Source: Betaproteobacteria bacterium GR16-43
Lineage (GTDB): Bacteria; Pseudomonadota; Gammaproteobacteria; Burkholderiales; Usitatibacteraceae
Assembly: GCA_001953215.1 (NCBI GenBank)
Contig: CP019169.1
Location: forward strand, 1,302,001-1,366,000
DNA length: 64,000 bases
Reading direction: 5' to 3'
Position numbers and translations under genes: made by a program. The number at the start of each line of letters is the position of its first letter. The stretch's first letter is position 1. The notes under the pieces are model-generated. The model made no database searches. It was not told the origin of the DNA and saw nothing but the letters and a program-made list of their open reading frames with translations. Below, one piece after another: positions 1,470 through 64,000 of the stretch.

Positions 1470-1471
1470 TC

Positions 1472-1542: not shown

Positions 1543-1544
1543 CG

Positions 1545-2336: not shown

Positions 2337-2373
2337 CGAGGTGCCTCCCGTAAGACGTCAGTCCATGAAATAG

Positions 2374-2386
2374 GGGGTCAGACCCC
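2374..2386. repeat. Minimal GGGGTC-A-GACCCC palindrome
   Basis: Thirteen-base perfect dyad in the gap between the SDR start (2336) and the end of the metallo-hydrolase gene (2409). Its GGGGTCAG core is shared with the long hairpin elements elsewhere in the window, so it may be a degenerate or minimal copy. Function unknown. Confidence 0.6.
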
Positions 2387-2408
2387 ATTATTCAACGGGA
2401 GCGGGTCG

Positions 2409-3503: not shown

Positions 3504-3551
3504 GCCGCCTTGATAGCACGGGGCCCGATGGCACCGTGTCACCGCGTGTCG

Positions 3552-4211
3552 CTATCTCTTGCGAAGGAGCGTCACCCCGTCGCCCACGGCCAGCATGGAG
3601 ATACCTACGCGGGAATCGTTGAAGACGAAGTCGTTGAACTGCCGCAGCGCCACCGTGTCCTTCTCGTTCTCGGAGGGGTCGGCGACCTTCCCGGACCAGA
3701 GCGTGTTGTCGACCATGATGAGACCGTTCGGGCGCATCAGCTTCAGCAGCCGCTCGTAGTAGCCGAGGTACGCCGGCTTGTCGGCGTCGATGAACGCGAA
3801 GTCGTACTGGTTCGCGCCGCCCTCGGCCAGCAGCTTGTCGAGCGTTTCATTCGCGGGGGCGATGCGCAGGTCGATCTTGTTCGCCACGCCGGCCTTCGCC
3901 CAGTAGCGCCGCGCGATGGTGGTCCATTCTTCGCTGATGTCGCACGCGATGATCCTGCCGTCGTCGGGCAGTGCGAGGGCCACGGAGAGCGAGCTGTAAC
4001 CGGTGAACACGCCCACTTCGATGCAGCGCTTCGCCCCGATCAGGCGCACCAGCATCTTCATGAATTGCCCCTGGTCGGCCGAGATCTGCATGCCGGCGTA
4101 TTTCATCGGCGCGGTCTCGGCCCGCAGCGCGGCTTGTGCGGGGTGCTCGCGCGCGGAATGGTCGATGATGTATTGCTGCAGCGCGGGCGTGACGTTGAGC
4201 AGGCGGGACAT
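3552..4211 (-). CDS. Class I SAM-dependent O-methyltransferase
   Basis: 219-residue methyltransferase of the caffeoyl-CoA/catechol O-methyltransferase family (PF01596 type). The SAM site is RCIEVGVFTGYSS, followed by ACDIS (acidic loop) and the metal/catalytic FIDADKPAYLGYY and MVDNTLWSGKV segments typical of divalent-metal-dependent O-methyltransferases. ATG 4211 is chosen because AGGAA precedes it and it leaves 7 bases after the upstream stop. The in-frame ATG at 4235 would overlap that gene. Probably co-transcribed with the EEP gene. The methyl acceptor is unknown. Confidence 0.85.
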   Translation of the reverse strand: MSRLLNVTPALQQYIIDHSAREHPAQAALRAETAPMKYAGMQISADQGQFMKMLVRLIGAKRCIEVGVFTGYSSLSVALALPDDGRIIACDISEEWTTIARRYWAKAGVANKIDLRIAPANETLDKLLAEGGANQYDFAFIDADKPAYLGYYERLLKLMRPNGLIMVDNTLWSGKVADPSENEKDTVALRQFNDFVFNDSRVGISMLAVGDGVTLLRKR

Positions 4212-19040: not shown

Positions 19041-20441
19041 TTAGTTTTTCGAAGCGGCGACGACAGGAGCCCCGAACCCGCCCCCAAGGGCCAGGTGCAG
19101 GTTCACGCGCTGCACCAGCCGTTCGCTGCGAGCGCGCGTGAGCGCCGAGCGCGCGGCGGAGGCGGCGATCACCTGCTGCTGCACCGCACGCAGGTCCGCC
19201 GAGCCGACGCGATAGCGCACCTGGGCCAGCTCGAGCGCGCGATCGCTTTCGACCGACTGCGCCTCGAGCACCTTCACGCGCTCGGCGAGGTTGAATCCCG
19301 CGGAGAGCGCGCCTTCGACTTCCGAGAACGCCTGCGCGCCAATGCGGCCGTATTCCGCGACGGCGGCCTTCTGTTCCGCGGTCCGGATTTCCACCTGGGC
19401 CTTGAGCGCGCCGCCCACGAAGAGCGGGGCCACGATGCCGGCGCCCGCGCTCCACACCGGATTGCTGCGATCCTGCAGCACGAAGAGCTCGCTCGAAATG
19501 CTGCTGCCGCTCGCGGTGAGCGAGACGCGCGGCAGGCGGGCGGCTTCGGCTTCGCCCGTCATGTAGAACGCGGAGGCCACGCGACGTTCGGCTGCGGAGA
19601 CGTCGAGGCGGCGCTCGAGCAGCTCCGAGGGCAGGCCCGCCGGCACGGGCCCCGGGAACGCGGGGAATTCGGCGGGAGAATCGAAGGCCGCGGCCGGGTA
19701 GCGCCCCAGCAGCGTTTCGAGCGCGCGCTTCGCCTGCTGCTCCGAGAGGTCAAGCTGCAGGACCATGTCGCGATAGCCCTGGGTCGCCGCATCGGCGACG
19801 CGCATGTCGTACTCGTCGCCGCGACCGACGCGGGCGCGGTCCGCGGCGAGCGACGAGAGTTTCATCGACGCATCCACCATGTCCTGCGCGATCGCGCGCT
19901 GCCGGCGCGCTTCGGTCGCGAGGAACCAGCTCTTGGCCACCAACGCCGCGATCGACTGGCGCGCGAACTCGGCGTCGCGCTGCACCGATTCGTATTGCGC
20001 GGACCCGGCCGCGGCCTGGTTGCGCACGCGGCCCCAGAGGTCCAACTCCCAGTTGGCGTAGAGCCCGCCGCCCGAAAGCCCGCTCGAATCGCCGGAGAGC
20101 TTGCCGCCGCCCTTCGCGATGGCCGTCACTTGCGGGTAGAGGGTCGATCCCGCCTGCGTCGCGTAGGCCGCGGCGCGCTCGACGCGAGTGGCGGCCACGC
20201 GCAGGTCGAAGTTGTTGGCGAGCGCTTCGGAAACGAGTGCGTCGAGCCTCGGATCCGCGAGGGTCGCGAGCCAGCCCGGGGACACCGCGCCCGGCACGGA
20301 ACCCGGTGCGGCCCAGGCCGGAGGCACCGCGATCGCGGGCATCGCATCGGCCGCGAGCGCCTTCGCGTCGGGGGTTTGCTTGATCGCGCAGCCCGGCACC
20401 AGCAGGGCGAGTACCAGCGGCGCGAAGCGAAGGGCGCGCAT
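19041..20441 (-). CDS. NodT-family outer-membrane efflux lipoprotein
   Basis: 466-residue TolC-like outer-membrane factor of the NodT/OprM group. The lipoprotein signal ends in LLVPGC, with Cys at about residue 18. Two OEP-type repeats are visible, with ANNFDLRVAATRVERA in the first half and the matching ALELAQVRYRVGSADLRAVQQ in the second, plus YANWELDLWGRVRN. ATG 20441 overlaps the upstream stop (TGATG). With the membrane-fusion and DUF3302 proteins encoded just before it, it would form a trans-envelope exporter. The inner-membrane pump is not in the window. Confidence 0.88.
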   Translation of the reverse strand: MRALRFAPLVLALLVPGCAIKQTPDAKALAADAMPAIAVPPAWAAPGSVPGAVSPGWLATLADPRLDALVSEALANNFDLRVAATRVERAAAYATQAGSTLYPQVTAIAKGGGKLSGDSSGLSGGGLYANWELDLWGRVRNQAAAGSAQYESVQRDAEFARQSIAALVAKSWFLATEARRQRAIAQDMVDASMKLSSLAADRARVGRGDEYDMRVADAATQGYRDMVLQLDLSEQQAKRALETLLGRYPAAAFDSPAEFPAFPGPVPAGLPSELLERRLDVSAAERRVASAFYMTGEAEAARLPRVSLTASGSSISSELFVLQDRSNPVWSAGAGIVAPLFVGGALKAQVEIRTAEQKAAVAEYGRIGAQAFSEVEGALSAGFNLAERVKVLEAQSVESDRALELAQVRYRVGSADLRAVQQQVIAASAARSALTRARSERLVQRVNLHLALGGGFGAPVVAASKN

Positions 20442-21661
20442 CAGTGCAGCTTCAGGACGAGGTAGTTGGTCTTCGCCGTGATCCGGATGAGCACCATGCG
20501 CAGGATGTGGATCGCGTGCATGTGGTCGGTGTAGATGGCGACGTCGCCACGCGCCCCGGCCGCGAGGAAGAGGTCCTTGTGCTTCGGGTCGATGATGAGT
20601 TTCACCGGGAATTTGTTGGGCGGCGGCGCCTGCGCGCCGGTGGTCGGCAGCGCGGTCGACATCTGGCTCTGCCCCTGGCCCTGCGCCCAGATGATCGAAT
20701 CCACCTTGGCCTTGATCACGTCGCCGGGATTCGTGATCAGCGAAATCTCCGCGTCGTTGCCCGGTGCCACCTGGTGCAGCTCGTTCTGGCTGTAGAGCGC
20801 GACGACCTGGAATTCCTCCTCGACGAATGTGAGCGCGGGCGTGATCGGGAATGCCGCGGTCATCGTGCCGGGGCGAAGCTGGACGTTGATCGCGTATCCA
20901 TCCGCAGGGGCGAGCACCGTGGTCTGCTCCAGCTCCCACCGCGCGTTCTCGAGTTGCGCGCGAACCTGTGCCACCTGCGCGTATTCGCCGCCGGAGACGG
21001 CGCCGATGCGCTGGCGGATCTGCCGCTCGCCCGCCCGCGCCTGGACCTCGGCGGCGCGTGCCTGCGTTTCGACCGCGCGTGCATTGGCCAGCGTCCCCTC
21101 CAGTTCCTTGAGGTTGGCCTCGGCCTGCTCGAGGTCGAACTTGCTGCCGGCGCCGGTGGCGACCAGCTCGCGGTTCTGACCCACGCGCATGCGCGCGAGC
21201 TCGGTCTTGGCGCTCACTTCGGTCGTGCGCGCGGCGGCCTGCACGACCGCGCCCTGCGCTTCGTTCACCTTGCCCGTGGCCCCGACGAGCTGCTCGTCCA
21301 GCTCGCGCGACGTACCCTGCGCGCTCGCGAGCTGCGCCTCGAGGGACTTCACCGCGAGCTGGTAGGGCGTCGGGTCGATCTTGAAGAGCACCTGCCCTTT
21401 CTTCACCAGCCGGTTGGGCTCCACCGGCACCTCGATCACCTTGCCCTTCACCTGCGGGACGATGTTCACGACGTACTTCAGGACCCGCACGTCGCTGCTC
21501 GAGGGCGCGAAGACGTTCAGCAGCAGGATGAGGATGGTGAGCGCGACGACCGGGATGATGACCACGATCACCTGCGACGTCGTGTTCCAGGGCAGCCACT
21601 TCTTCTTGATGAAGATGAACCAGACGAAGAAGGCGTAGATCGCAAGGAGCAAGGCATCCAT
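20441..21661 (-). CDS. HlyD-family membrane fusion protein, YiaV-like
   Basis: 406-residue periplasmic adaptor. Two N-terminal hydrophobic segments (about 1-18 and 29-50), then a barrel-sandwich half NIVPQVKGKVIEVPVEPN, a long alpha-hairpin (about 100-220, rich in Ala/Glu/Gln), the second lipoyl half TVLAPADGYAINVQLRPG and a beta-barrel. Two N-terminal helices and partnership with a DUF3302 protein match YiaV. Its start abuts the DUF3302 stop with no gap. Exports an unknown substrate together with the NodT protein. Confidence 0.87.
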   Translation of the reverse strand: MDALLLAIYAFFVWFIFIKKKWLPWNTTSQVIVVIIPVVALTILILLLNVFAPSSSDVRVLKYVVNIVPQVKGKVIEVPVEPNRLVKKGQVLFKIDPTPYQLAVKSLEAQLASAQGTSRELDEQLVGATGKVNEAQGAVVQAAARTTEVSAKTELARMRVGQNRELVATGAGSKFDLEQAEANLKELEGTLANARAVETQARAAEVQARAGERQIRQRIGAVSGGEYAQVAQVRAQLENARWELEQTTVLAPADGYAINVQLRPGTMTAAFPITPALTFVEEEFQVVALYSQNELHQVAPGNDAEISLITNPGDVIKAKVDSIIWAQGQGQSQMSTALPTTGAQAPPPNKFPVKLIIDPKHKDLFLAAGARGDVAIYTDHMHAIHILRMVLIRITAKTNYLVLKLH

Positions 21662-52559: not shown

Positions 52560-52613
52560 CGCGATAGCGGGCGATGATCGCCGCGACTGTTGTTCGCGCG
52601 CCGGGGCGTGTTT

Positions 52614-53528
52614 ATGATGTCCCGCATGACGATCCTGGGCAGCGACGTTCGCGAAGGCCTCGATGCCAGCATCGAGGCGAATCCCGCCGGATTCGACGGC
52701 ATCGAGTTCATCGAGTACTCGACCCCGCAGCCGCAGGCGCTGGGCCAGGTGCTCGAGCTGCTCGGGTTCCGCCCCATCGCGCGCCACCGTTCGCGCGAAG
52801 TGCTGCTCTACCGCCAGGGCGGCATGAACATCGTGGTCAACGGCCACCGCTACGCGAGACCGATCGACGAGCCGCTCGAAACGCCACAAATCGCGGCCGT
52901 TGCGTTTCGCGTGAAGGATGCCGCCGTCGCCTACCATCGCGCCATCGACCTGGGCGCGTGGCCGGTGGCCAGCCACGTCGAGCTGATGGAGCTGAAGATC
53001 CCCGCCATCCACGGCGTGGGCACGACCCGCATCTACCTCGTCGATCGCTATAAAGAGTTCTCGATCTACAGCGTCGACTTCGTTCCGATCCCCGGGGCCG
53101 ATCCCGCTCCTCCGGCGATCGCCGGCCTGCACTGGTTCGGGCTCGTGCAGTACGTGGCCCAGGGCCGGCTGGACGATTGGACCGTCTTCTATCGCGAGCT
53201 CTTCGGGTTCACCGCGCTGCCCGACGATGAACGCTTCGGGATCCTCCCGAAGGGCCGCATCCTGAGAAGCCCCTGCGCGAACGTCCACCTCCAGCTCGTG
53301 GGTCCCGAACCCGGCGGCGCCGAGCTCTACGGCGCCGAAAGGCTGCAGCGCATCGGCCTGGGCACGCCCGACGTGCTCGCGGCGGTGAAGACGCTGCAGG
53401 CCCGGGGCGTCGAGTTCCATGTTTCCGAGACCCTGCACATCGAAGAGAAGGGCGCCCTCACGCGTCCCTGGTTGGGCGGCGTGATGTTCGAACTCGTGCG
53501 CGATCCCGGCGCACGGGAGAAGAAGTGA
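52614..53528 (+). CDS. HPPD-like VOC-family protein
   Basis: 304-residue protein with two vicinal-oxygen-chelate modules, related to 4-hydroxyphenylpyruvate dioxygenase and to the HPPD-like half of QuiC-type dehydroshikimate dehydratases. N-terminal module: DGIEFIEYSTPQPQALGQVLELLGF. C-terminal module: GLHWFGLVQYV (His173), FELVRDP (Glu293). The position of the second metal His reads LQRIGLGTPD (Arg246), so the facial triad seems broken. ATG 52614 is chosen, with 52617 also possible. Its stop overlaps the next gene by GTGA. Confidence 0.78.
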   Translation: MMSRMTILGSDVREGLDASIEANPAGFDGIEFIEYSTPQPQALGQVLELLGFRPIARHRSREVLLYRQGGMNIVVNGHRYARPIDEPLETPQIAAVAFRVKDAAVAYHRAIDLGAWPVASHVELMELKIPAIHGVGTTRIYLVDRYKEFSIYSVDFVPIPGADPAPPAIAGLHWFGLVQYVAQGRLDDWTVFYRELFGFTALPDDERFGILPKGRILRSPCANVHLQLVGPEPGGAELYGAERLQRIGLGTPDVLAAVKTLQARGVEFHVSETLHIEEKGALTRPWLGGVMFELVRDPGAREKK

Positions 53529-54418
53529 GGTCTGCCACCGAGCATTGGAGCGATTTCGGGATGGACACGATCTCGCTCGCCGGCCCGCTCGACTCGAAGC
53601 TGCGCGTGATCCGCGATGCCGGCTTCACGCAGGTCATGCTCTCCGCGCAGGACCTGGCCGGCCACCCCGACGGCATGGAAGCGGCGATGCGTTCGCTCAA
53701 GGCGAGCGGGCTTCGCGTCACGGGGCTCCAGGCGTTGCGCGACTTCGAGGGCCTGGAAGGCGCGTTGCACGCGTACAAGGTGGACGTCGCCAAGTCCCTG
53801 CTCGACATGTGCCGCGCGATCGGTTCTCCCGTGCTGGTGGTCAACTCTTCCGCGCATGCGCAGGCCTCGACGGACCGGGACGTGATCGGGCGCGACCTGC
53901 GGAAGCTCGCGATGCTCGCGCTGCCGTTCGGCATCAAGATCGCGTACGTGGCGCTCTCCTGGGGACGGGCGATTCGCGACTTCGAAGCCGCGCTCGACGT
54001 GGTGGGCCGCGCCGAGATGCCCAACCTCGGCATCGGCGTCGATTCCTTCCATTCGTTCGCCACGAAGTCGGCGCTCGACGATCTCGACCTCGCCTTCGGC
54101 GAATCCATCCTGCTGGTGCAGCTCTCGGACTTCATGGTGGCCGAGCTGCCGTCGCTCAAGGATCGCATCGCGACCGCCAACCACCTGCGCGTGTTTCCCG
54201 GAGAGGGATTGCACAGCGAGCTGGTGGCCGAACTGGTCCAGCGCGTCACGTCGATGGGCTACCGCGGCGACTACAGCTTCCAGGTCTTCAACGACGACTA
54301 CCACCAGATCGATCCCGCCACCGTGGCGGCCCGCGCGCGCCGCTCCGCCGTCTGGCTGGGCGAGGAAGTCCTGTTGCGAACGGTTCCGCTGCGGCTCGGC
54401 CGGCCGTTGCGCGCCTAG
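53525..54418 (+). CDS. TIM-barrel protein related to 3-dehydroshikimate dehydratase (QuiC/AsbF-like)
   Basis: 297-residue sugar-phosphate isomerase/epimerase-type TIM barrel. Segments IAYVALSWGRAIRDFEAA, GVDSFHSFAT, LLVQLSDFMV, LRVFPGEG and GYRGDYSFQVFNDDY align with QuiC-type dehydroshikimate dehydratases as I recall them. In those, metal ligands are Glu, Asp, Gln, Glu. Here the positions read Val142, Asp173, Gln199, Gln253, so two acidic ligands are missing. Could be inactive, regulatory or of new specificity. Cotranslated with the HPPD-like protein; in QuiC the two halves are fused in the opposite order. Confidence 0.75.
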   Translation: MRSATEHWSDFGMDTISLAGPLDSKLRVIRDAGFTQVMLSAQDLAGHPDGMEAAMRSLKASGLRVTGLQALRDFEGLEGALHAYKVDVAKSLLDMCRAIGSPVLVVNSSAHAQASTDRDVIGRDLRKLAMLALPFGIKIAYVALSWGRAIRDFEAALDVVGRAEMPNLGIGVDSFHSFATKSALDDLDLAFGESILLVQLSDFMVAELPSLKDRIATANHLRVFPGEGLHSELVAELVQRVTSMGYRGDYSFQVFNDDYHQIDPATVAARARRSAVWLGEEVLLRTVPLRLGRPLRA

Positions 54419-54433: not shown

Positions 54434-55306
54434 CTAGGGCAGCGCGGCACCGAGCTGCTGCGCGGTCTTCATCAACGGTTCGAGGTACCGCGCGGCCAGC
54501 TTGCTCCGGGATGTTCGCGCTACCAACACGATGACGTTGATGCCGGCCACGATCTGGCCCGCACGGTTTCGAACCGGCACCGCGATGGTGCGGAAGCCCG
54601 CTTCCATTTGCTGGTCGGCGATCGCGAATCCTTCCTCGCGCACGCGCGCCAGGTACTCGCGCAGGCCTTCGGGCGAGGCGATCGTGTGCTGCGTGTACGG
54701 CACGAACCGCACCTGGCCCAGCGTCTCCTCGAGCGCCGCGGGCGCGAGCTGCGCGAGCAGCACCTGGCCGATCGACGTGCAATAGGCCGGCAGCCGCTCT
54801 CCCACGTTGAAGCGCGGCGACATCACCGACGAGGAATTCGCGCGCGCGAGGTACACGATGTCCACGCCGTCGAGGACGCCGAGCGAACACGACTCGCCGA
54901 TCTCCTCGGCCAGCACGTCGAGGTGCTGCTGCGCCACGGTGGGCAAGGGCGTGGCCGAGAGGTAGGCGTGCCCGAGCGTCACGACCTTGGGCAGCAGCGA
55001 GAAGCGGCAGTCGTCGTGGCTCACCACGTAGCCCAGGCTCGCCAGCGTGTGGAGGTAGCGGCGCACCGCGGCGCGGGCGATGCCGGTCTTCTGGCTGATC
55101 TTCGCGATCGACATCGTGCGCTGCTGGTTGGTGAAGGCCTGGATCACGGCCAGGCCGCGCGCGAGCGACGCGACGAAATCGCGTTCCGTGCAACGCCCGG
55201 CTTCGCCCGGAACCGGCGGGTCTTCCGCCCTCGTCGCGAGGTCGGAACGCACCGCACGTCCGCGGCGAATCACAAGCGCGTCTTGCGAGACGCTGTCATG
55301 GGGCAT
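54434..55306 (-). CDS. IclR-family transcriptional regulator (PcaR/PobR-like)
   Basis: 290-residue regulator with an N-terminal winged helix (MSIAKISQKTGIARAAVRRYLHTLASLGYVV) and a C-terminal effector domain (YCTSIGQVLLAQL, FAIADQQMEAGFRTIAVPV). The YLHTLxxLGYV and ECx/CSLGVLDG pattern fits the branch that controls protocatechuate and 4-hydroxybenzoate genes. GGAGGAG sits 6 bases before ATG 55306. About 36 residues precede the HTH. Divergent from the AroE-like gene, its probable target. Confidence 0.9.
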   Translation of the reverse strand: MPHDSVSQDALVIRRGRAVRSDLATRAEDPPVPGEAGRCTERDFVASLARGLAVIQAFTNQQRTMSIAKISQKTGIARAAVRRYLHTLASLGYVVSHDDCRFSLLPKVVTLGHAYLSATPLPTVAQQHLDVLAEEIGESCSLGVLDGVDIVYLARANSSSVMSPRFNVGERLPAYCTSIGQVLLAQLAPAALEETLGQVRFVPYTQHTIASPEGLREYLARVREEGFAIADQQMEAGFRTIAVPVRNRAGQIVAGINVIVLVARTSRSKLAARYLEPLMKTAQQLGAALP

Positions 55307-55392: not shown

Positions 55393-55500
55393 ACAGCGCC
55401 CAACTTACTGCACGGTGTCTTGCTTGGCAATGCGCCTCGCACTAAAAGTTCTCATCTCGGAGGAATCCCGCGCCACAGCGGGAAGGGGAACGACAAGAAC

Positions 55501-56331
55501 ATGATCCGCGGCACCACGCGGCTGATCGCGCACCTGGGTTACCCGATCGATCCGGTGAAGGCGCCGATGATCTACAACCCCTACTTCGAACACCATCGCA
55601 TCGACGCGGCCGTCGTTCCGATGGGCGTCGAAGCGCGCGACTTCGCGGCCGTCCTCGGGGCGGTCTTCCGGCTCACGAACATCGTGGGTGCCCTCGTCAC
55701 GATGCCGCACAAGGTCACCACGGCTTCGCTGCTGGACGTTTGCAGCGACGAGGTGCGCACTGCGGGGTCGTGCAACGCCGTGCGCCGGCGCGAGGACGGG
55801 TCGCTGGTCGGCGACATGTTCGACGGCGCGGGCTTCGTGCTCGGGCTGCGGCGCAAGGGGTTCGTGTGCGAGGGCGCGCGGTGCCTCGTGGTCGGCGCCG
55901 GGGGCGTGGGCTCCGCGATCGCGGCCGCGCTGGCCGGCGCGGGCGTGAAGTCGATCGCCCTGTTCGACCTGGACGAGGCGGCCTCGAAAGGCTTGCGGCG
56001 AAGGCTGGCCGACCGGTACCCCGGCCTCGAAGTCACGTTCACCGAACCGGACCCCGCAGGTCACGACCTCGTCGTGAACGCCACGCCCCTGGGCATGCAC
56101 GCCGAGGACGCGTTGCCGCTCGACGCCTCGAAGCTCGCGCCCTCGACCTTCGTGGGCGAGGTCGTGATGAAACAGGAAATCACCCCGCTGCTGCGCGCGG
56201 CCCGCGGGATCGGCTGCCGCACGCAGGTGGGCACGGACATGCTCTTCGAACAGATACCCCTGTACCTGAAATTCTTCGGCCTCCGCGATGCGGGGCCGGA
56301 AGAGTTGAGGGCGCTTGCGCGCCTCGCATAG
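55501..56331 (+). CDS. Shikimate-dehydrogenase-family (AroE-like) oxidoreductase
   Basis: 276-residue NAD(P)-dependent dehydrogenase. Substrate domain with VTMPHKVT (catalytic Lys) and GDMFDGAGFVLGL (Asp), SCNAVRR, and a Rossmann domain CLVVGAGGVGSAIAAAL. Biosynthetic AroE has a Ser-x-Ser pair near the N-terminus that binds shikimate carboxylate. Here the place reads DPVKAPMIYNPYF, without those serines, as in catabolic or uncharacterised AroE-like subfamilies. ATG 55501 is preceded by AAGGGGA. The frame is open back to 55420. Likely quinate/shikimate-like substrate, unproven. Confidence 0.85.
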   Translation: MIRGTTRLIAHLGYPIDPVKAPMIYNPYFEHHRIDAAVVPMGVEARDFAAVLGAVFRLTNIVGALVTMPHKVTTASLLDVCSDEVRTAGSCNAVRRREDGSLVGDMFDGAGFVLGLRRKGFVCEGARCLVVGAGGVGSAIAAALAGAGVKSIALFDLDEAASKGLRRRLADRYPGLEVTFTEPDPAGHDLVVNATPLGMHAEDALPLDASKLAPSTFVGEVVMKQEITPLLRAARGIGCRTQVGTDMLFEQIPLYLKFFGLRDAGPEELRALARLA

Positions 56332-56444: not shown

Positions 56445-57614
56445 ATGAACAGAACCAATGCACGGAACGCCAAGACACTCCGCCGCGCCCCGCTGGTCGT
56501 GGGCATCCTGGCGGCGCTCGCCGCCGCCGACTGCGCGGCACAGCACATTCCGCTGACGCTCTACGGACGCGTGCACGTTTCGGTGGAAAGCCTCCAGGCC
56601 GGCGGTCCCACGGCGGTGAAGCGCACGGAGTTCAAGAACAACACCTCGCGCATCGGCATTCGCGGCAGCTACGACGTCGGCAACGACTTCTACGCGTTCT
56701 ACCAGATCGAGTCCGGCGCGGCGGCCGACGGTGACGGCCTGGGCACCGGTTCCAACACGAACGGCGGTCGCGAGACCTTCGCGGGCTTCGGCAACACGAA
56801 CGCGGGATCGATCAAGGTCGGCAACTTCTATCACCCGTACGACGACCTGCACTACGTGTCGGGCAACTACTGGCAGCTCTTCACGGGCACGTCCAACGAC
56901 GCCACCCTGTGGGCCAACGGTTCCAGCGCGGCGACCGGCGGCTTCGACCAGCGCCTCGCCAACGGCGCCTCGTACTACACGCCGAACTGGAACGGCTTCC
57001 AGGGCAAGCTCTGGTACTCGCTCACGCAAGGCACCGGCGGCGAGGAGGCCCTCGGCTCGCAAGGCTCGAAGGTCGTCTCGACGAGCCTCGCCTACGACAA
57101 GAACGGCATCCGCCTCGCGTGGGCCTACTACGGCATCACCGACGCGAAGGCGCTCTCGAACAACTTCTACGAGAAGGGCTCTTCCAACTTCATCACCGGC
57201 GGCTATACCTTCGGCGGGTTCTATGTCGCCGCGCTGATCGAGAAGGACAAGCTCGAGAACATCAACGGGACCAGCAACGATCGCGACCGGAGCTACTGGC
57301 ACATCCTCGGCAAGTACACGACCGGCAAGCACACGGTCGGCGGATGGTACGGCAAGGCCGACGCCTGGAAGGGTTCGGCGGGCATCTCCAGCAGCGGCGC
57401 GAAGATGTGGACGCTGGGCTACAGCTACGCGGTGTCGCCGATGTCCGGTGTCTACGCGCTGTACACGAAGCTCGAGAACGAGTCCGCCGGCGCCTACATC
57501 CTCGGCGGCAGCCCGGCGCGCGGCAGCACGGCCACTTCCGACTGGCTGCCGGCACGCGCCGACCAGCCTGCGTTCGTGCTCGGCGGATTCGTGAACTTCC
57601 AATGGCCCAATTGA
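56445..57614 (+). CDS. Gram-negative porin
   Basis: 389-residue trimeric outer-membrane porin of the betaproteobacterial type. Signal peptide (about 1-32), then LTLYGRVHVSVESL, NNTSRIGIRGSYDVGNDF, FAGFGNTNAGSIKVGNFYHP and regular aromatic beta-strands to the C-terminal aromatic/Asn end VNFQWPN. The final residue is Asn, not the usual Phe. AAAGGGAG precedes ATG 56445. A terminator follows the gene. Its place in the catabolic island suggests uptake of the island substrate. Confidence 0.9.
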   Translation: MNRTNARNAKTLRRAPLVVGILAALAAADCAAQHIPLTLYGRVHVSVESLQAGGPTAVKRTEFKNNTSRIGIRGSYDVGNDFYAFYQIESGAAADGDGLGTGSNTNGGRETFAGFGNTNAGSIKVGNFYHPYDDLHYVSGNYWQLFTGTSNDATLWANGSSAATGGFDQRLANGASYYTPNWNGFQGKLWYSLTQGTGGEEALGSQGSKVVSTSLAYDKNGIRLAWAYYGITDAKALSNNFYEKGSSNFITGGYTFGGFYVAALIEKDKLENINGTSNDRDRSYWHILGKYTTGKHTVGGWYGKADAWKGSAGISSSGAKMWTLGYSYAVSPMSGVYALYTKLENESAGAYILGGSPARGSTATSDWLPARADQPAFVLGGFVNFQWPN

Positions 57615-57646: not shown

Positions 57647-57679
57647 GGAGCCGCGGCATCTCCTCCGCGGCTCCTTTTT
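57647..57679 (+). terminator. Rho-independent terminator after the porin gene
   Basis: Perfect 10-base stem GGAGCCGCGG/CCGCGGCTCC with an 8-base loop and five Ts. It ends porin transcription ahead of the small ACT-like gene. Confidence 0.88.
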
Positions 57680-57686
57680 CCCTTGC

Positions 57687-57947
57687 GTGACGTACACGAT
57701 CCACCTGCGCGTCCATACCGACCTGCTCGCGGTCGCGCGCGTCATCCGCCTCCTGAAGCGCCACGCGGTCACGGCGGCGGAAGTCGCGATCGAGCGCTTC
57801 TCGGGCCGCGAGGTCGCGAGCGTGCGGGGCCGGTTGCCACTCGGGCATCGCGCCGACGGCCTCGCCGCCGCGTTGCTGCGGGCGCCCGACGTACAGCACG
57901 CGATCATCCTCAGCGACTCGGACGTGATCGTGGAGTTTTCGCGCTGA
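57687..57947 (+). CDS. Small ACT-domain-like protein
   Basis: 86-residue protein, TYTIHLRVHTDLLAVARVIR at the start and APDVQHAIILSDSDVIVEF at the end: a beta-alpha-beta-beta-alpha-beta pattern like the ACT domain of IlvM-type acetolactate synthase small subunits. GTG 57687 is the first start after the terminator. The frame opens earlier (57618), but that would encode through the hairpin. No Shine-Dalgarno. It could be a regulatory subunit for the ThDP enzyme encoded at 59512 (inference). Confidence 0.6.
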   Translation: MTYTIHLRVHTDLLAVARVIRLLKRHAVTAAEVAIERFSGREVASVRGRLPLGHRADGLAAALLRAPDVQHAIILSDSDVIVEFSR

Positions 57948-58061
57948 CCGGAAAGTGGGCGGCTGGCGCACAACATGTGCGCGCTCGCCTTGACGCTGCG
58001 GGGGGCCGATTCTTATCGTCGGAATGAGAGCCACACGGTTCGCGGCGAAGGGTATTGCACG

Positions 58062-59501
58062 ATGGAAACGGCGAAGAAGGGCATCGACGAAGAGCAGCGC
58101 CACGAGCTGGACGCTGCGTTCGACCGCGCGCGCAAGGCGCTCGCGATCATCGAGACGTACGACCAGGCGCGCGTGGACCGCCTCTGCCAGGCCGTGGCCT
58201 GGGCCGTGGCCAACAAGCGCGCGTTCACGCGCCTCGTGGACATGGGCATCCAGGAAAGCGGGCTCGGCGACGCCGAGAGCCGCATGGGCAAGCGCATGAA
58301 GATCCGCGGGGTGTTGCGCGATGCGCTGCGCCAGAAGAGCGTGGGCGTGATCGAGGAGCTTCCGGAGAAGGGGATCGTGAAGTACGGCAAGCCCGCGGGG
58401 ATCATCGCGTGCATCGTGCCCACGACCAATCCCGACCTCACGCCGGCCGGCAACGCCATCTACGCCATCAAGGCGCGCGACGTCGTGATCTTCTCGCCGC
58501 ATCCGCGCTCGAAGAAGACGTCCTTCGAGACCGTGCGCCTCATGCGCGAGGCCCTCGAGCGCGAAGGCGCGCCGCCCGACATCCTCCAGTGCCTCGTGAA
58601 GGTGAACATCCCGATGTCGCAGGCGCTGATGGCGCGCGCGGACCTCATCATCGCCACCGGCGGCCAGCCGATGGTGCGCGCCGCGTACAGCTCCGGCACG
58701 CCCGCCTACGGCGTGGGCGCCGGCAACTCGACCATGGTGATCGACGAGACGGCCGACATCGCGGAGGCCGCGCGCAACACGCGCCTGTCGAAGACCTCGG
58801 ACTTCGGCTCGGGCTGCTCCGCGGACGGCAACCTCCTCATCGAGTCCTCCGTCTACGAAGCGATGGTGAAGCAACTGCAGGCCGAGGGCGCGCACCTGGC
58901 GAGCGACGCGGAGAAGGAACAACTGCGCCGCGCGATGTGGGACGACGAAGGGCACCGCCGCCCGGAGACCGTCGCCATCGCGCCGCAACAGCTTGCGATC
59001 GCCGCCGGTTTCACCATCGCCGCCGACCGGAAGTTCATCGCGGTGCGCGGCGACGGCATCGGCAAGGCGCACCCGTTCTCGGGCGAGAAGCTCACCACCC
59101 TCCTGGCGCTCTACAAGTACGAGGGCTTCGACCAGGCCCTGTCCATGATGCGGGCCATCTACGAAGTCGGAGGCAAGGGCCATTCGTGCGGCATCTACTC
59201 CTTCGACCAGGACCACATCCACCGGCTGGCGATGGCCGCGCCCGTGTCGCGCATCATGGTTCGCCAGCCGCAGTCGAAGGCCAACGCGGGTGCGTTCAAC
59301 AACGGCATGCCGATGACCTCCAGCCTGGGCTGCGGCACCTGGGGCGGCAACGTCGTCTCGGAGAACGTCCACCTGAAGCACTACATGAATACGACGTGGG
59401 TCTCCGTGCCCATCGCCGAGGACAAGCCGTCGGACGAGGAGCTCTTCGGGCCCTTCTACGACGCCGAGCTCGAGTCCGATCGCGCCGCCCAGGCGGCCTA
59501 G
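58062..59501 (+). CDS. CoA-acylating aldehyde dehydrogenase (SauS/AdhE-N-like)
   Basis: 479-residue aldehyde dehydrogenase of the acylating group, which oxidises an aldehyde to acyl-CoA with NAD(P)+. Seen: PAGIIACIVPTTNP, FSPHPRSKKTSFET, catalytic Cys in DFGSGCSADGN (about residue 252), GGKGHSCGIYSF and C-terminal CGTWGGNVVSENV. Resembles AdhE/EutE and sulfoacetaldehyde dehydrogenase SauS. The aldehyde is unknown. ATG 58062 is preceded by AAGGG; an earlier in-frame ATG (57975) adds a non-conserved leader. First of a tight four-gene run. Confidence 0.85.
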   Translation: METAKKGIDEEQRHELDAAFDRARKALAIIETYDQARVDRLCQAVAWAVANKRAFTRLVDMGIQESGLGDAESRMGKRMKIRGVLRDALRQKSVGVIEELPEKGIVKYGKPAGIIACIVPTTNPDLTPAGNAIYAIKARDVVIFSPHPRSKKTSFETVRLMREALEREGAPPDILQCLVKVNIPMSQALMARADLIIATGGQPMVRAAYSSGTPAYGVGAGNSTMVIDETADIAEAARNTRLSKTSDFGSGCSADGNLLIESSVYEAMVKQLQAEGAHLASDAEKEQLRRAMWDDEGHRRPETVAIAPQQLAIAAGFTIAADRKFIAVRGDGIGKAHPFSGEKLTTLLALYKYEGFDQALSMMRAIYEVGGKGHSCGIYSFDQDHIHRLAMAAPVSRIMVRQPQSKANAGAFNNGMPMTSSLGCGTWGGNVVSENVHLKHYMNTTWVSVPIAEDKPSDEELFGPFYDAELESDRAAQAA

Positions 59502-59511
59502 GAACCCGATC

Positions 59512-61290
59512 ATGAGAAAGCTGATTTCGCACCAGCTGGTGAAGTACCTCGAAGCTCGCGGCGTCGAGCACGTGTTCGGCCTCTGTGGGCACACCAACAT
59601 CGCGGTGCTGGCCGAGCTGGAGAAGAGCCCGATCGAATTCATCAACGTGCGCCACGAGCAGATCGCCGCGCACATGGCCGACGGCTATGCGCGCGTGAAG
59701 CGCAAGGCCTCGGTGCTGCTCTCGCACCTGGGCCCGGGCCTCACCAACGCGTGCACGGGCGTGGCCAACGCGGCGCTCGACTCGATCCCGATGGTGGTGA
59801 TCGCCGGCGACGTGCCCACGCACTATCACGGCAAGCATCCGCACCAGGAGGTGAACCTGCACGCGGATGCCTCGCAGCACGAGATCTACCGCCCGTTCGC
59901 GAAGCGCACGTGGCGCGTGGACCAGCCCGACCTCTTTCCCGAGATCCTCGAGAAGGCCTTCACGCTCGCCGAGAGCGGCCGCCCCGGCATCGTGCTGATC
60001 GACGTGCCGATGGACATCTTCTCGAGGGAGGTCGACGTCGAGCTCTTCGACCGCTTGCGCGCGAACACGAAGGCGCTTCGCAAGCCCTCGATCGACGAGG
60101 GTACCGCGGTGGAGATCGTGAAGCGCCTGGCCGGTGCCAAGCGCCCGGTGATCTACGCCGGCGGCGGCATCAACATCGCGGGTGCCGCGCCCGAGCTGCG
60201 CGAGCTGGTGGACTACCTGCAGATTCCCGTCGCGCACTCGCTCATGGGCAAGGGCGCGCTGCCCGACGACCACCCGTTCATCCTCGGCATGACGGGCTTC
60301 TGGGGCACGCGCTTCATCAACGAGCAATGCCGCGCGGCGGACGTCGTCCTCGGCGTGGGCACGCGCTTCTCGGAGGCGGACTGCAGCTCGTGGGAGAGCG
60401 AATACACGTTCAACTTCCCGCCGACGCGGCTGATCCACATCGACATCGACCCCGCGGAGATCGGCCGCAACTATCCGGCGGAAATCGGCGCGGTCTCGGA
60501 CCTGAAGCAGGCGCTCGCCGCCCTCGTGCGCGCCGCGCGCGTGCACGTTCCCGGCGGCATCAAGAGGCCCGAGGTCGCGGCGGAACTGGCCGCGGCCCGC
60601 GCGAGCTTCATCGAGGGCAACCGAAAGCACGCGACGAGCGACGTCTTCCCGATGCGCCCCGAGCGCATCCTGGCCGACGTGCGCGCGGCCCTGCCGCGCG
60701 ACGCGCTCATCACGACCGACGTGGGCTGGAACAAGAACGGCGTCGGCCAGCAATTTCCGATCCTCCAGCCCGGCACGATCTTCACGCCCGGGGGCCTCGC
60801 GACGATGGGCTTCGGCGCCCCCGCCGCGCTGGGGGCCAAGCTCGCGGCGCCGGAGCGCGTCGTGGTGGCCCTCGTGGGCGACGGCGGCTTCGGCCAGAAC
60901 CCCGCGATGCTCGCCACCGCCTTCGAGCGCGACATCGGCGTCGTGTGGGTCATCATGAACAACTTCGCCTACGGCACGATCGCGGGCCTCGAGAAGGCGC
61001 ACTACGGAACGACGTACGGCACCGTGTTCGAGAAGGACGGCAAGCCCTACTCGCCCGACTACGCCGCGATCGCGAAGGCCTACGGCATCGACGGCCTCAA
61101 GGTCGCGAGCGCCGCGGAGTTCAAGCCCGCGCTGGAGCGCGCCATCAAGGCGGGCAAGCCCTTCGTGCTCGACGTCGCGATGCTGAACGAGCCGGTGCCC
61201 ACCGCGGGGCACTGGAACATCATGGACATCTACTCGCCGGGCAAGAAGGTGCACCACGCGAGCACGGCCGGGGCCGCGTTGGGCGACTAG
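59512..61290 (+). CDS. ThDP-dependent enzyme of the acetolactate synthase-like family
   Basis: 592-residue thiamine diphosphate enzyme with PYR, central and PP domains. Activating Glu49 in NVRHEQIAAHMADGYAR, central domain with GMTGFWGTRF, ThDP/Mg motif GDGGFGQNPAMLATAFERDI ending in IMNN (about 459-488). It has Glu49, so it is not a glyoxylate carboligase, where Val replaces it. A decarboxylase or carboligase acting on a 2-oxoacid is likely, its aldehyde product passing to the aldehyde dehydrogenase encoded 10 bases upstream. Substrate unknown. Confidence 0.85.
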   Translation: MRKLISHQLVKYLEARGVEHVFGLCGHTNIAVLAELEKSPIEFINVRHEQIAAHMADGYARVKRKASVLLSHLGPGLTNACTGVANAALDSIPMVVIAGDVPTHYHGKHPHQEVNLHADASQHEIYRPFAKRTWRVDQPDLFPEILEKAFTLAESGRPGIVLIDVPMDIFSREVDVELFDRLRANTKALRKPSIDEGTAVEIVKRLAGAKRPVIYAGGGINIAGAAPELRELVDYLQIPVAHSLMGKGALPDDHPFILGMTGFWGTRFINEQCRAADVVLGVGTRFSEADCSSWESEYTFNFPPTRLIHIDIDPAEIGRNYPAEIGAVSDLKQALAALVRAARVHVPGGIKRPEVAAELAAARASFIEGNRKHATSDVFPMRPERILADVRAALPRDALITTDVGWNKNGVGQQFPILQPGTIFTPGGLATMGFGAPAALGAKLAAPERVVVALVGDGGFGQNPAMLATAFERDIGVVWVIMNNFAYGTIAGLEKAHYGTTYGTVFEKDGKPYSPDYAAIAKAYGIDGLKVASAAEFKPALERAIKAGKPFVLDVAMLNEPVPTAGHWNIMDIYSPGKKVHHASTAGAALGD

Positions 61291-61293
61291 GCC

Positions 61294-62148
61294 GTGAAGC
61301 ACGACTACTCCCTCGCGCACCTCACCGTGCTGTCGGTCCCGCCGCCGGAGCTGGTGGAGATCGCCGCGCGCACGGGCTACGAGTACGCGAGCATCCGCGT
61401 GACGCGAGTGACGGCCGCCGAGCCGCTCTACGACCTCGCGCGCGACCCGGTGCTCATGCGCGAGACGCGCTCGCGCCTGGATGCGACCGGCATCAAGGTG
61501 CACGACATCGAGCTCTTCCGGATGGACCCGGCCATCGAACCCGAGTCCTTCGCGCCCGAACTGGAAGCGGCGGCCAAGCTGGGGGCCAAGCGGATCATCG
61601 CGCAGTTGCCCGACCCGGACCGCGCCCGCGCGATCGATCGATTCGGCCGGCTCTGCGACATGGCGAAGCCCTACGGGATCTTCGTCGGGCTCGAGTTCCC
61701 GCATTGGACCGAGACCGGCACGTTGTCCGAAGCGGTGCGCGTGCTGCGCGCCGCGAAGCGCTCGAACGCCGGCATCCTGATCGACATGCTCCACATGGGC
61801 CGCTCGGGCTCCAGCACGGACGAGCTGCGCGGCCTTCCGCGCGAGTGGTTCCAGTTCGCGCACGTGTGCGACGCGGAGCGCGAAGTCCCGCCCACCCTCG
61901 AGCGCTGCCTGCGCACCGCGCGCGACGAGCGGCTCTTTCCCGGCGAGGGATCGATCGACGTGCGCGGGATCCTGTCCTGCCTCCCGCAGGACATTCCCTA
62001 CGCCCTCGAGATCCCGCGCTCCGCGCTCACGAAGGCGGTCGGGCCCGAGGAAGTGGCGCGCCTGGCGCTGCGCGTGGCGCGCAGCCACCTCGACGGCGCC
62101 GAAGGCGAGTCGGTCCCCCAACGCCGTTCCGGCACCTCGGCGCGCTGA
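61294..62148 (+). CDS. Sugar-phosphate isomerase/epimerase-type TIM-barrel protein
   Basis: 284-residue TIM barrel of the xylose-isomerase-like (AP endonuclease 2) group. Likely metal ligands are all present: Glu in VGLEFPHW, Asp in LIDMLHMG, His in FAHVCDAE, Glu in YALEIPRS. Compare the degenerate homologue at 53525. GTG start 3 bases after the ThDP-enzyme stop, so same operon. Could isomerise a hydroxy-oxo acid such as hydroxypyruvate (inference only). Confidence 0.83.
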   Translation: MKHDYSLAHLTVLSVPPPELVEIAARTGYEYASIRVTRVTAAEPLYDLARDPVLMRETRSRLDATGIKVHDIELFRMDPAIEPESFAPELEAAAKLGAKRIIAQLPDPDRARAIDRFGRLCDMAKPYGIFVGLEFPHWTETGTLSEAVRVLRAAKRSNAGILIDMLHMGRSGSSTDELRGLPREWFQFAHVCDAEREVPPTLERCLRTARDERLFPGEGSIDVRGILSCLPQDIPYALEIPRSALTKAVGPEEVARLALRVARSHLDGAEGESVPQRRSGTSAR

Positions 62149-62185
62149 GACGATGCATTCCCTTGCTGCGGCGCACCACGCCGGT

Positions 62186-62229
62186 GAATTAACGAGACCG
62201 CCAAGTTATACTGGCGACCATGTTAATTC
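62186..62229. promoter_or_regulatory. Nested-dyad operator over the tetR promoter
   Basis: Two inverted repeats share one centre (62207.5): outer GAATTAAC (62186-62193)/GTTAATTC (62222-62229) and inner CGCCA (62199-62203)/TGGCG (62212-62216). A TATACT -10-like hexamer (62207-62212) lies at the centre. This is a likely site for the TetR-family protein encoded at 62243. Confidence 0.65.
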
Positions 62230-62242
62230 CGTTCCTTTCGCG

Positions 62243-62923
62243 ATGCTGAACGCCCGGACCGGCACCCGCACGGCCGCCATGCGCAAGCCCAAGGCGCCCG
62301 AGGCCAACCGGGCGCGCATCCTCGGCGCGGCCACGGAGGAGTTCGCTTCCCGCGGCTTCAAGGGTGCCAGCATGGACGCCATCGCGGCGCGCACCCGCAC
62401 CACGCGCGCGATGATCAACTACTACTTCGGCACCAAGGAGAAGCTCTACCTGGCGGTGCTCGAAAGCGTGTATTCGGAAATCCGGCAGGCCGAGGCGAAG
62501 CTCGACCTCGACCACCTGCCGCCGGTGGACGCGATGCGGCGCATCGTCGAGTTCACGTTCGGCTACTACATCGAGCACGAGGCCTTCGTGCGCCTCGTGA
62601 TCGCCGAGAACCAGGCCAAGGGGCGCCACCTCAAGAAGTCGGCGGCGATGCGCACGCTCAACCGGCCGATCGTGGCGCTGCTGAGCGGCGTCATGGCGCG
62701 CGGCCAGGCCGAGGGAAGCTTCCGCGCCGGGCCCGACCCGATCGACGTCCACATGGCGATCGCCGCGCTCGGCAACTTCAACGTGAGCCACCAGCACACC
62801 TTCGGAGCGATCTTCCAGCGCGACATGGGTGCGAAGGGCGACGTGGATGCGCGCTGTGCCGTAGTGACCGAGCTTGTTCTGAGGTACCTGATGAATCCCA
62901 TAACTTCACAGGAGGAGAAATAA
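62243..62923 (+). CDS. TetR-family transcriptional regulator
   Basis: 226-residue repressor. HTH: RARILGAATEEFASRGFKGASMDAIAARTRTTRAMINYYFGTKEKLYLAVLE. The ligand domain follows, ending LVLRYLMNPI. Several starts are possible (62219, 62243, 62279). 62243 leaves a 12-residue basic leader before the conserved part, with none having a good Shine-Dalgarno. It sits between the enzyme genes and the TRAP genes on the same strand. The nested dyad upstream suggests autoregulation. Confidence 0.87.
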   Translation: MLNARTGTRTAAMRKPKAPEANRARILGAATEEFASRGFKGASMDAIAARTRTTRAMINYYFGTKEKLYLAVLESVYSEIRQAEAKLDLDHLPPVDAMRRIVEFTFGYYIEHEAFVRLVIAENQAKGRHLKKSAAMRTLNRPIVALLSGVMARGQAEGSFRAGPDPIDVHMAIAALGNFNVSHQHTFGAIFQRDMGAKGDVDARCAVVTELVLRYLMNPITSQEEK

Positions 62924-62924
62924 G

Positions 62925-63914
62925 ATGGACTTCAAACCGAACCGCCGCACCGCGCTCCAGGCGGGCGCCGCGCTCGCCGCCACGTCCCTGCTGCCCGCCT
63001 GGGCGCAGGCCAAGCCGACGCTGCGCTTTGCCGCCGTGTTTTCCGACAAGGACATTCGCGCGGACATGATGCGCATGCTGGCCAAGGACATCGAGGGTGA
63101 CTTCACCGTCGAGACCTTCTTCAATGCGTCGCTCTTCAAGCAGGGCACGGAGCTGGTCGCCCTGCAGCGCGACAACCTCGAACTGGGCAACATCGCGCCG
63201 CAGGACTATTCCAAGCAGATCCCGGCCTGGTCGATCCTCACCTCGGCGTATCTCTTCCGCGACGCCAACCACCTGGGCACCTTCTGGTCGAGCGACCTGG
63301 GCGCGCAGTACAAGAAGCAGGCCGAGGACCAGATGAAGGTGAAGATCCTCGGGCCGACCTTCTTCGGCACGCGGCAGGTGGGCCTGAAGGCGAAGAAGAA
63401 GATCAACACGCCCGCCGACCTCGCCGGCGTGAAGCTGAGGATGCCCCCGGGTGACGCGTGGCAGCTCCTCGGCCGCTCGCTGGGTGCCAATCCCACGCCC
63501 ATGGCCTATGCCGAGACCTACACGGGCCTGCAGACGGGCGCGATCGACGGCCAGGACAACCCGCTGCCCAACGTGCAGAACATGAAGTTCTACGAGGTGA
63601 TGTCGCAGATCGTGCTGACCTCGCACCTGGTCGGCTACGACCTGCTCACGATGAACCTCAAGGCGTGGAACGCGATGTCGCCGGCGAAGCAGAAGTCCTT
63701 CCAGGCCGCGGCCGACAAGGCGATCGCGTGGAGTGCCGCCGAGCACCTCAAGCGCGAGGCCGACCTCGCGGACAGCTTCCGGAAGATGGGCCTCGAGATC
63801 TACGCGCCCGACGTGAAGGCGTTCCGCGAAAACGCCCAGAAGGTCTACCTCGCTTCCGACGACGCCAAGGAGTGGCCGAAGGGGATGCTCGAGAAGATCG
63901 GCGCGCTCAAGTAA
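62925..63914 (+). CDS. dctP: TRAP transporter substrate-binding protein, DctP family
   Basis: 329-residue periplasmic binding protein. N-terminus NRRTALQAGAALAATSLLPAWAQA is a twin-arginine-like or Sec signal. Conserved TRAP features: TRQVGLKAKKKINTPADLAGVKLRMPPGDAW (Arg that binds the carboxylate), AYAETYTGLQTGAIDGQDNPLP. AGGAGGAG precedes ATG 62925, 1 base past the tetR stop. Binds an organic acid or sulfonate for uptake, probably the island substrate. Confidence 0.92.
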   Translation: MDFKPNRRTALQAGAALAATSLLPAWAQAKPTLRFAAVFSDKDIRADMMRMLAKDIEGDFTVETFFNASLFKQGTELVALQRDNLELGNIAPQDYSKQIPAWSILTSAYLFRDANHLGTFWSSDLGAQYKKQAEDQMKVKILGPTFFGTRQVGLKAKKKINTPADLAGVKLRMPPGDAWQLLGRSLGANPTPMAYAETYTGLQTGAIDGQDNPLPNVQNMKFYEVMSQIVLTSHLVGYDLLTMNLKAWNAMSPAKQKSFQAAADKAIAWSAAEHLKREADLADSFRKMGLEIYAPDVKAFRENAQKVYLASDDAKEWPKGMLEKIGALK

Positions 63915-64000
63915 TGAATCCGACCCTGGCGAAGGCCGGCGCGTGGCTGCGCCGGCGCGCCGAGGATGTCGCCGTGCTGATGCTCGGCGTCATGTTCGTC
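63914..64000 (+). CDS. TRAP transporter small permease (DctQ-type), 5' fragment
   Basis: Twenty-nine codons before the window ends: a basic leader (WLRRRAEDVAV) and the beginning of a hydrophobic helix (LMLGVMFV), typical of the small four-helix TRAP subunit. Its ATG overlaps the dctP stop (TAATG). The large permease is expected next, outside the window. Confidence 0.7.
   Translation, partial: MNPTLAKAGAWLRRRAEDVAVLMLGVMFV

Follow-up and report, generated by a model that had tools for sequence, protein, structure and literature searches.

What is degraded by a gene cluster that joins a TRAP transporter, a TIM-barrel protein, a thiamine diphosphate (ThDP) dependent enzyme and an aldehyde dehydrogenase (ALDH), and by which chemistry? 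The question is raised by the last part of a 64,000 nt stretch from Betaproteobacteria bacterium GR16-43 (contig CP019169.1, positions 1,302,001 to 1,366,000 of the forward strand; hereafter the window), which ends inside the cluster; the host genome is complete and measures 4.8 Mb. In an initial annotation the genes had been read as uptake by TRAP, isomerisation, ThDP-dependent decarboxylation or C-C cleavage and conversion of an aldehyde to acyl-CoA, with a sulfonate or a hydroxypyruvate-like acid as the candidate substrate. Here, we propose, with a probability of roughly 0.55 for the explanation as a whole, that the cluster is a quinate/shikimate catabolic set in which a non-aromatic ring is opened by the ThDP enzyme. 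The proposal builds on the gene content, on a tightly related ThDP family and on recurrent exchanges of partner genes, from which all enzymatic steps are inferred.

Proposed pathway and core genes

After uptake by the TRAP transporter, the substrate would be converted by shikimate/quinate dehydrogenase and dehydroquinase to 3-dehydroquinate, in which the C1 hydroxyl is kept. The TIM-barrel protein would remove the C5 hydroxyl of this compound, the same elimination as that of dehydroshikimate dehydratase (DSD), to yield 1-hydroxy-3,4-dioxocyclohexane-1-carboxylate, a 3,4-dione that would be non-aromatic because C1 is blocked. The ThDP enzyme would then hydrolyse the C3-C4 bond of the 1,2-dione with the aldehyde at C3, in a reaction comparable to those of IolD and cyclohexane-1,2-dione hydrolase (CDH), and the resulting homocitrate semialdehyde would be converted to homocitryl-CoA by the acylating ALDH or, in other genomes, by a plain ALDH together with a CaiB-type CoA-transferase. 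A citryl-CoA lyase (CCL) or a homologue of 3-hydroxy-3-methylglutaryl-CoA (HMG-CoA) lyase (HMGL) would finally release acetyl-CoA and 2-oxoglutarate, by which quinate (C7H12O6) would be divided into C2 and C5 with two hydride transfers. Cleavage of 3-hydroxy-3-substituted acyl-CoAs, CoA-S-CO-CH2-C(OH)(R)-R', is common to citryl-CoA lyase and HMG-CoA lyase. The tertiary alcohol of dehydroquinate, C1(OH)(COOH) between two CH2 groups, would suit this substrate type; with the opposite regiochemistry the hydroxyl would lie gamma to the thioester, and the lyases would have no substrate.

The core genes (58062-63914) all lie on the + strand and show the G+C bias between codon positions that marks coding DNA. 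They are flanked on both sides by quinate/shikimate genes, with a split quiC, a PcaR-like IclR regulator and a shikimate dehydrogenase (SDH) upstream, and a shikimate dehydrogenase and a dehydroquinase downstream. The genes past the window's end are given in coordinates of locus L003 of the same genome:

58062-59501, + strand: CoA-acylating ALDH; its best matches among PDB sequences are acylating ALDHs
59512-61290, + strand: ThDP enzyme (PF02775, PF02776, PF00205)
61294-62148, + strand: IolI/IolE/dehydroshikimate-dehydratase-like (xylose-isomerase-like) TIM barrel (PF01261)
62153-62923, + strand: TetR-family regulator (PF00440, PF17938), with its start perhaps at 62279
62925-63914, + strand: TRAP solute-binding protein DctP (PF03480 and NF037995, both over cut-off)
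63914-64000, + strand: start of DctQ (PF04290), complete at L003 6315-6830
L003 6830-8119, past the window end: DctM (PF06808)
L003 8119-8979, past the window end: second shikimate dehydrogenase (PRK12549, 403.3 bits, over the cut-off of 235)
L003 9035-9484, past the window end: type II 3-dehydroquinate dehydratase (TIGR01088, 180.9 bits, over the cut-off of 169.85)

The acylating-type ALDH, ThDP enzyme, TIM barrel, TetR regulator and TRAP protein named in the initial annotation were all recovered by Pfam/NCBIfam matches. From its outline we retain TRAP uptake, a TIM-barrel step, ThDP-dependent C-C cleavage and the conversion of an aldehyde to acyl-CoA, as well as the view that the set fits no recognised pathway; the substrates are replaced, and for the ThDP step decarboxylation gives way to hydrolytic ring cleavage as the better guess.

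Neighbourhoods of the ThDP family

A scan of the genomes of 84,980 species returned 462 stretches encoding a relative of the ThDP enzyme at E<=1e-3. The best 80 of these, three records of a plasmid collection and the window make up 84 loci (numbered with the prefix L), in which neighbour homologues were scored by tblastn. Across the best 80 genome loci the ThDP enzyme shows 70-82% identity; by record title these loci belong to Beta-, Alpha- and Gammaproteobacteria, Bacilli, Negativicutes, Clostridiales, Desulfobulbaceae and Geobacteraceae, and a few are metagenome-assembled genomes labelled Gemmatimonadetes. The plasmid-collection records stem from Azoarcus (72%) and two actinomycetes (53%). 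The family is patchy, since its sole carrier (E<=1e-120) in a class sample of 369 genomes is the window's own. Further copies occur within single genomes: in Noviherbaspirillum denitrificans the opposite strand encodes another ThDP protein with about 52% identity (L028 15963-17813), Priestia abyssalis has two family loci (L021 and L023) and Bacillus taeanensis two near-identical ThDP copies 19 kb apart (L113, L117).

Homologues of the ALDH accompany the ThDP gene in 69 of the 84 loci, the TIM barrel or DSD in 68, a shikimate dehydrogenase or zinc-type dehydrogenase (ZnADH) in 64, a lyase in 58 and a dehydroquinase in 42; in the 56 loci whose flanks measure 8 kb or more on either side, these counts are 51, 46, 46, 41 and 31, respectively. 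The proposed pathway has to reckon with the converse, namely that the dehydroquinase was not seen in 42 and the lyase in 26 of the 84 loci, and in 25 and 15 of the fully flanked ones.

At four steps, one type of partner takes the place of another. The ALDH is of the acylating type only in 46 loci, of the plain type only in 23 and of both types in none, and a CoA-transferase is found in 17 loci with a plain ALDH and in no locus with an acylating one. Similarly, the lyase is CCL only in 32 loci, HMGL only in 25 and both in 1; the dehydroquinase type I only in 26, type II only in 15 and both in 1; the dehydrogenase SDH only in 39, ZnADH only in 25 and both in 0. The CCL gene lies at most 300 bp from the ThDP gene in 23 of 33 cases, and the CCL of L052, the sole one scanned, exceeds the cut-off of the citryl-CoA lyase model NF004864 (421.8 versus 261 bits). 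When mapped onto a phylogeny of the 84 ThDP proteins, the ALDH, lyase, dehydroquinase and SDH/ZnADH labels change 9, 6, 8 and 5 times, of which at least 6, 5, 6 and 3 changes, as obtained by a quick method, are forced by supported branches. Because the labels switch repeatedly on this tree, the alternative partners behave as functional equivalents, and judged by the sequences the pattern is that expected of functional equivalents in one pathway, in which an aldehyde would be turned into acyl-CoA either directly or by two steps and then be handed to a lyase.

For these counts weaker matches were dropped, namely CoA-transferases below 50% identity (second copies in L083, L088 and L091 and the one in L047), an HMGL below 39% (L057) and ZnADHs below 45% (L069 and a second copy in L073), with identity limits that were chosen after the neighbourhood data had been seen. 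The ALDH limits removed no acylating ALDH, and the plain ALDHs of L036, L042, L063, L065, L071 and L089 share just 31-35% identity with the query. Fisher tests on the partner counts ignore descent. The background of the type II dehydroquinase was taken from 8 whole genomes totalling about 42 Mb, several of them picked for a known cluster copy, in which the enzyme has 10 copies; 5 of these copies lie in ThDP loci, and the rest correspond to about 0.002 expected per 20 kb, versus 16 of the 84 loci.

The same survey bears on the substrates first proposed. Catabolism of a sulfonate or a hydroxypyruvate-type acid has in its favour that the nearest curated model of the ALDH is that of sulfoacetaldehyde dehydrogenase, SauS (NF047625), that TauE/SafE-type genes (PF01925), a type sometimes linked to sulfonates, lie in 4 of the 84 loci, and that a gene near the Azoarcus set is annotated as putative sulfate exporter; the TauE/SafE-type genes also tell against quinate and shikimate. 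However, the ALDH reaches 473.3 bits where SauS requires 600, and the ThDP enzyme falls short of both sulfoacetaldehyde acetyltransferase Xsc (NF005713, 297.6 versus 620 bits) and the glyoxylate carboligase Gcl of the gcl-hyi type (NF008431, 305.3 versus 791 bits). Moreover, the recurrent neighbour groups that were identified, part of the groups having been scanned, include dehydroquinases, shikimate dehydrogenases and citryl-CoA/HMG-CoA lyases, and none is sulfonate-specific. On these curated cut-offs and neighbourhoods we rejected the sulfonate and glyoxylate/hydroxypyruvate readings, which we now consider very improbable.

Other genes recur less often around the ThDP gene. HPPD homologues are present in 19 of the loci, DSD homologues in 20, SDH homologues in 39, TetR homologues in 9 and shikimate kinase homologues (PF01202) near 14. 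Genes for pyrroloquinoline quinone (PQQ) dehydrogenases (L064, L071, L078) and carboxylesterases (PF00135 in L078, homologues in L065 and L071) also lie near the ThDP set; the PQQ enzyme of L064, of the glucose/quinate/shikimate type, scores 468.8 bits, under the cut-off of 832.65, with homologues of at least 26% identity in 7 loci, and for the carboxylesterases we can only guess at a cleavage of quinate esters such as chlorogenate. In Geobacteraceae, a gene adjoining the ThDP gene (L069 11986-13317) resembles cis-3-hydroxy-L-proline dehydratase (237.6 bits, cut-off 700). Near the cluster in 4 of the 84 loci (L003 9504-10220 in the window's genome, L012, L013 and L033) lies a gene whose product, about 230-333 aa long, has no Pfam match.

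Active site of the ThDP enzyme and its partners

To what extent does the ThDP enzyme itself resemble a ring hydrolase? It was aligned with two IolD proteins from family-bearing genomes, with CDH (2pgn) and with four paralogues from the window's genome. Its H27 aligns with H28 of CDH and with the His of the pocket segment FGHGN in both IolD proteins, a residue that we read as the defining mark of IolD. In CDH, H28 is one of the two positions changed in the H28A/N484A variant that serves for C-C ligation (PMC8541089, PMC12247030). H27 is invariant in all 84 family members, and the four paralogues carry G, E, E and I at this position (His in 0/4). E49 of the general ThDP site is likewise found in 84 of 84 members; Gcl is not known to carry this Glu. 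With the IolD profile TIGR04377, the family ranks directly behind IolD, or at the top where no IolD passes the cut-off, in 7 of 7 genomes other than the window's own, one of which holds a second family copy that is 99.8% identical; in these genomes the matches, confirmed to be family members, score 249.8-285.9 bits, below the cut-off of 715.

Other features of the enzyme go against a ring hydrolase. Of the CDH active-site residues H28, H31, H76 and N484, the last three are not conserved in the ThDP family. The top-ranked profile matches are acetolactate synthase models, with TIGR00118 at 414.3 bits versus a cut-off of 538.35, and two paralogues in the window's genome (31.8% identity) are closer overall than CDH (28.0%) or IolD (24.0-24.9%). 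The tree, with its long branches, leaves the relation of the family to IolD and CDH unresolved; a placement as sister of either was considered and found no support in it. Best matches of the ThDP enzyme in the PDB are acetolactate-synthase-like enzymes and glyoxylate carboligase, and none of the 25 NCBIfam models listed, out of 54 matched, reaches its cut-off. The ThDP enzyme could be modelled with moderate confidence (pLDDT 77.5).

The TIM barrel was modelled with a pLDDT of 93.2, its nearest folds being IolI, Lmo2234 and the QuiC-type 5hmq, with IolE (3cny) and AsbF (3dx5) among the top 50. All 44 sequences share E134, D164 and E239, and position 190 is occupied by His in 38 of them and by Gln in 6. 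With the two-domain QuiC model NF042435 (635 positions) the core TIM barrel reaches 26.2 bits, far from the cut-off of 1200. We predict it to be a dehydratase (or a ketol isomerase) acting on dehydroquinate. In the alignment, C252 of the ALDH falls on the Cys of acylating ALDHs, and the enzyme is predicted to convert homocitrate semialdehyde to homocitryl-CoA. For DctP, the closest solved relative by sequence is 4pf6, reportedly a structure with 3-deoxy-D-manno-oct-2-ulosonate (KDO) bound.

Quinate and shikimate could also be degraded by other chemistry, in which the TIM barrel would be an IolI-like isomerase, the ThDP enzyme would cleave an alpha-hydroxyketone or a different dione, and the acyl-CoA would not be homocitryl-CoA. 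Such a route would agree with the isomerase IolI as nearest fold of the TIM barrel, with the overall likeness of the ThDP enzyme to acetolactate-synthase-type enzymes and with the unsettled relation to IolD and CDH on the tree. It does not agree as well with the alternative lyases, both of a type requiring a 3-hydroxy-3-substituted acyl-CoA, or with the H27 position, common to the ring hydrolases and absent in the four paralogues. We regard it as an unlikely explanation, albeit one to be taken seriously.

Host genome, other carriers and known systems

Does the window's own genome support ring opening by the ThDP enzyme, or does it point to the aromatic route? The genes upstream of the core are the following:

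52590-53528, + strand: HPPD-like protein, C-terminal half of QuiC (NF042435 positions 292-499 of 635, 89.7 bits, below the whole-length cut-off); possibly a pathway partner or part of an aerobic protocatechuate branch
53525-54418, + strand: TIM-barrel, 3-dehydroshikimate dehydratase-like protein, N-terminal half of QuiC (NF042435 positions 5-268, 133.8 bits, below the whole-length cut-off)
54434-55306, - strand: IclR-family regulator, PcaR/PcaU/PobR subfamily (TIGR02431, 294.2 bits, over the cut-off of 284.75)
55495-56331, + strand: shikimate/quinate dehydrogenase-like protein (PF08501 over cut-off; shikimate dehydrogenase models match, under their cut-offs)
56445-57614, + strand: porin (PF13609), possibly the entry route of the substrate
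57687-57947, + strand: small ORF of 86 residues

Within 52590-54418 the QuiC domains are separate overlapping genes, first the HPPD-like gene and then the TIM barrel, the reverse of the order in the fused protein. The small ORF had been labelled ACT-like, a label that finds no backing in Pfam, NCBIfam or PDB sequences, and none of the other 83 ThDP loci has a homologue, the best E being 0.26. A role as regulatory subunit of the acetolactate synthase type was rejected, as the ORF has no family match and is not conserved across the loci. It is preceded by a terminator-like site (57647-57674, followed by T's) between the porin gene and the ORF, and a promoter-like site (57990-58019) lies ahead of the ALDH gene; both are consensus matches, with 1 found versus 0.2 and 0.1, respectively, in shuffles.

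Several properties of this genome weigh against the proposed pathway. A CCL-like gene was not found in it (best matches 28.7 and 23.9 bits) and no lyase is linked to the cluster, which does not encode the step from homocitryl-CoA to acetyl-CoA and 2-oxoglutarate; the relatives with the shortest tree path to it, L012 and L013, likewise show no linked lyase. Four HMGL-family genes are present, all away from the cluster. One of them, L097, shares 58-60% identity with four cluster HMGLs (L031, L033, L037, L072) and 37-43% with the six others of the 10 compared, and has an IclR gene and the gene of a family III CoA-transferase beside it; another, L096, is 39-47% identical to all ten. Both are candidate lyases only, and L097 may serve another pathway. 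Furthermore, the cluster dehydroquinase is the sole one found in the genome, type I being absent from it, and may therefore be biosynthetic there or be shared with biosynthesis. Finally, two adjacent PF00775 dioxygenase genes lie at 2.97 Mb, and together with the PcaR-like regulator and the quiC halves they indicate that a protocatechuate route probably coexists in this genome.

Taken further, the unlinked dioxygenases, the IclR regulator of the PcaR/PcaU/PobR subfamily, the quiC-like genes and a possibly biosynthetic dehydroquinase would fit two pathways side by side, in which quinate and shikimate are converted to protocatechuate and the central TRAP/TIM/ThDP/ALDH module serves another, unrelated acid. 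However, the association of the ThDP family with dehydroquinase and shikimate dehydrogenase recurs across phyla, and it holds in fermenters and among the 18 of 20 tested family-bearing genomes (completeness not given) in which PF00775, the intradiol dioxygenase family, has no match. We consider two separate pathways to be quite improbable. The LigB family PF02900 was tried as a marker of protocatechuate 4,5-cleavage and set aside as not diagnostic, since it matches in 16 of 20 carriers and also in 4 of 14 controls, including E. coli.

Plants contain the acids quinate and shikimate in abundance, and the textbook bacterial route leads to protocatechuate, with oxygen needed for ring cleavage. We know of no gene set that has been assigned to the pathway of quinate/shikimate fermenters. 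Brune and Schink reportedly observed in 1992 that fermenting isolates degrade quinate and shikimate without aromatic intermediates. Going by their titles, papers of 2002 present Propionivibrio limicola and Ilyobacter insuetus as fermenting specialists on these acids, P. limicola being described there as specialised on hydroaromatic compounds. P. limicola carries the family, and its ALDH, ThDP and TIM genes (L058) lie at the end of a contig. In Pelosinus fermentans (L081), aconitase-family, NADP-isocitrate dehydrogenase, malic-enzyme-like and CitE-like genes lie by the ThDP set (29-3788 and 20315-21196). The isocitrate dehydrogenase scores 670.8 bits (cut-off 335), the aconitase-family gene 558.1 of 641 with a hydratase model and over the cut-off with PF00330, and the CitE-like gene 377.7 of 443.4 bits. 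These genes possibly form a reductive outlet for 2-oxoglutarate; homologues of the aconitase-family and isocitrate dehydrogenase genes occur in 1 of the 84 loci.

The broader idea, that a widespread but patchy, oxygen-independent, non-aromatic quinate/shikimate pathway exists, with a new family of ThDP ring hydrolases and non-homologous replacements at four steps, and is used by specialists such as P. limicola, we put forward tentatively, at slightly less than even odds. If true, it could explain the anaerobic life of some bacteria on quinate and shikimate and would give a role to generically or distantly annotated genes, such as the 'thiamine pyrophosphate-binding protein' and 'citryl-CoA lyase' of Azoarcus. 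The cluster supplies named enzymes, intermediates and genomes to test, next to a candidate new ThDP ring hydrolase. A description of the proposed pathway was not found in the open-access literature, and with most subscription journals outside that search its novelty is not proven.

Among the known systems, the classical route from quinate/shikimate to protocatechuate (Qui and pca) shares shikimate/quinate dehydrogenase, dehydroquinase and quiC-like genes with the present set, which, however, adds a ThDP enzyme, an acylating ALDH (or ALDH with CoA-transferase) and, in relatives, an acyl-CoA lyase, none of which the aromatic route needs. CDH of strain 22Lin belongs to the same superfamily as the ThDP enzyme and its H28 corresponds to H27 in the alignment, but identity is 28% and H31, H76 and N484 are not conserved. 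Aromatoleum diolicum 22Lin (L063), taken to be the source strain of CDH, carries the ThDP family as a separate set with CoA-transferase, citryl-CoA lyase, shikimate dehydrogenase and type I dehydroquinase. In myo-inositol catabolism, a cyclitol ketone is dehydrated to a cyclic 1,2-dione, which is opened hydrolytically by a ThDP enzyme, and an acylating aldehyde dehydrogenase acts later. The same step logic is proposed for the present cluster, which has the TIM-barrel fold in common with IolE/IolI and, in the alignment, the pocket His and a loop insertion in common with IolD, ahead of a CoA-acylating enzyme as in IolA. It differs in that the ThDP family shares 24-25% identity with IolD and scores far below the IolD cut-off, and in that its loci hold quinate/shikimate genes and citryl-CoA/HMG-CoA lyases instead of the iol kinase and aldolase.

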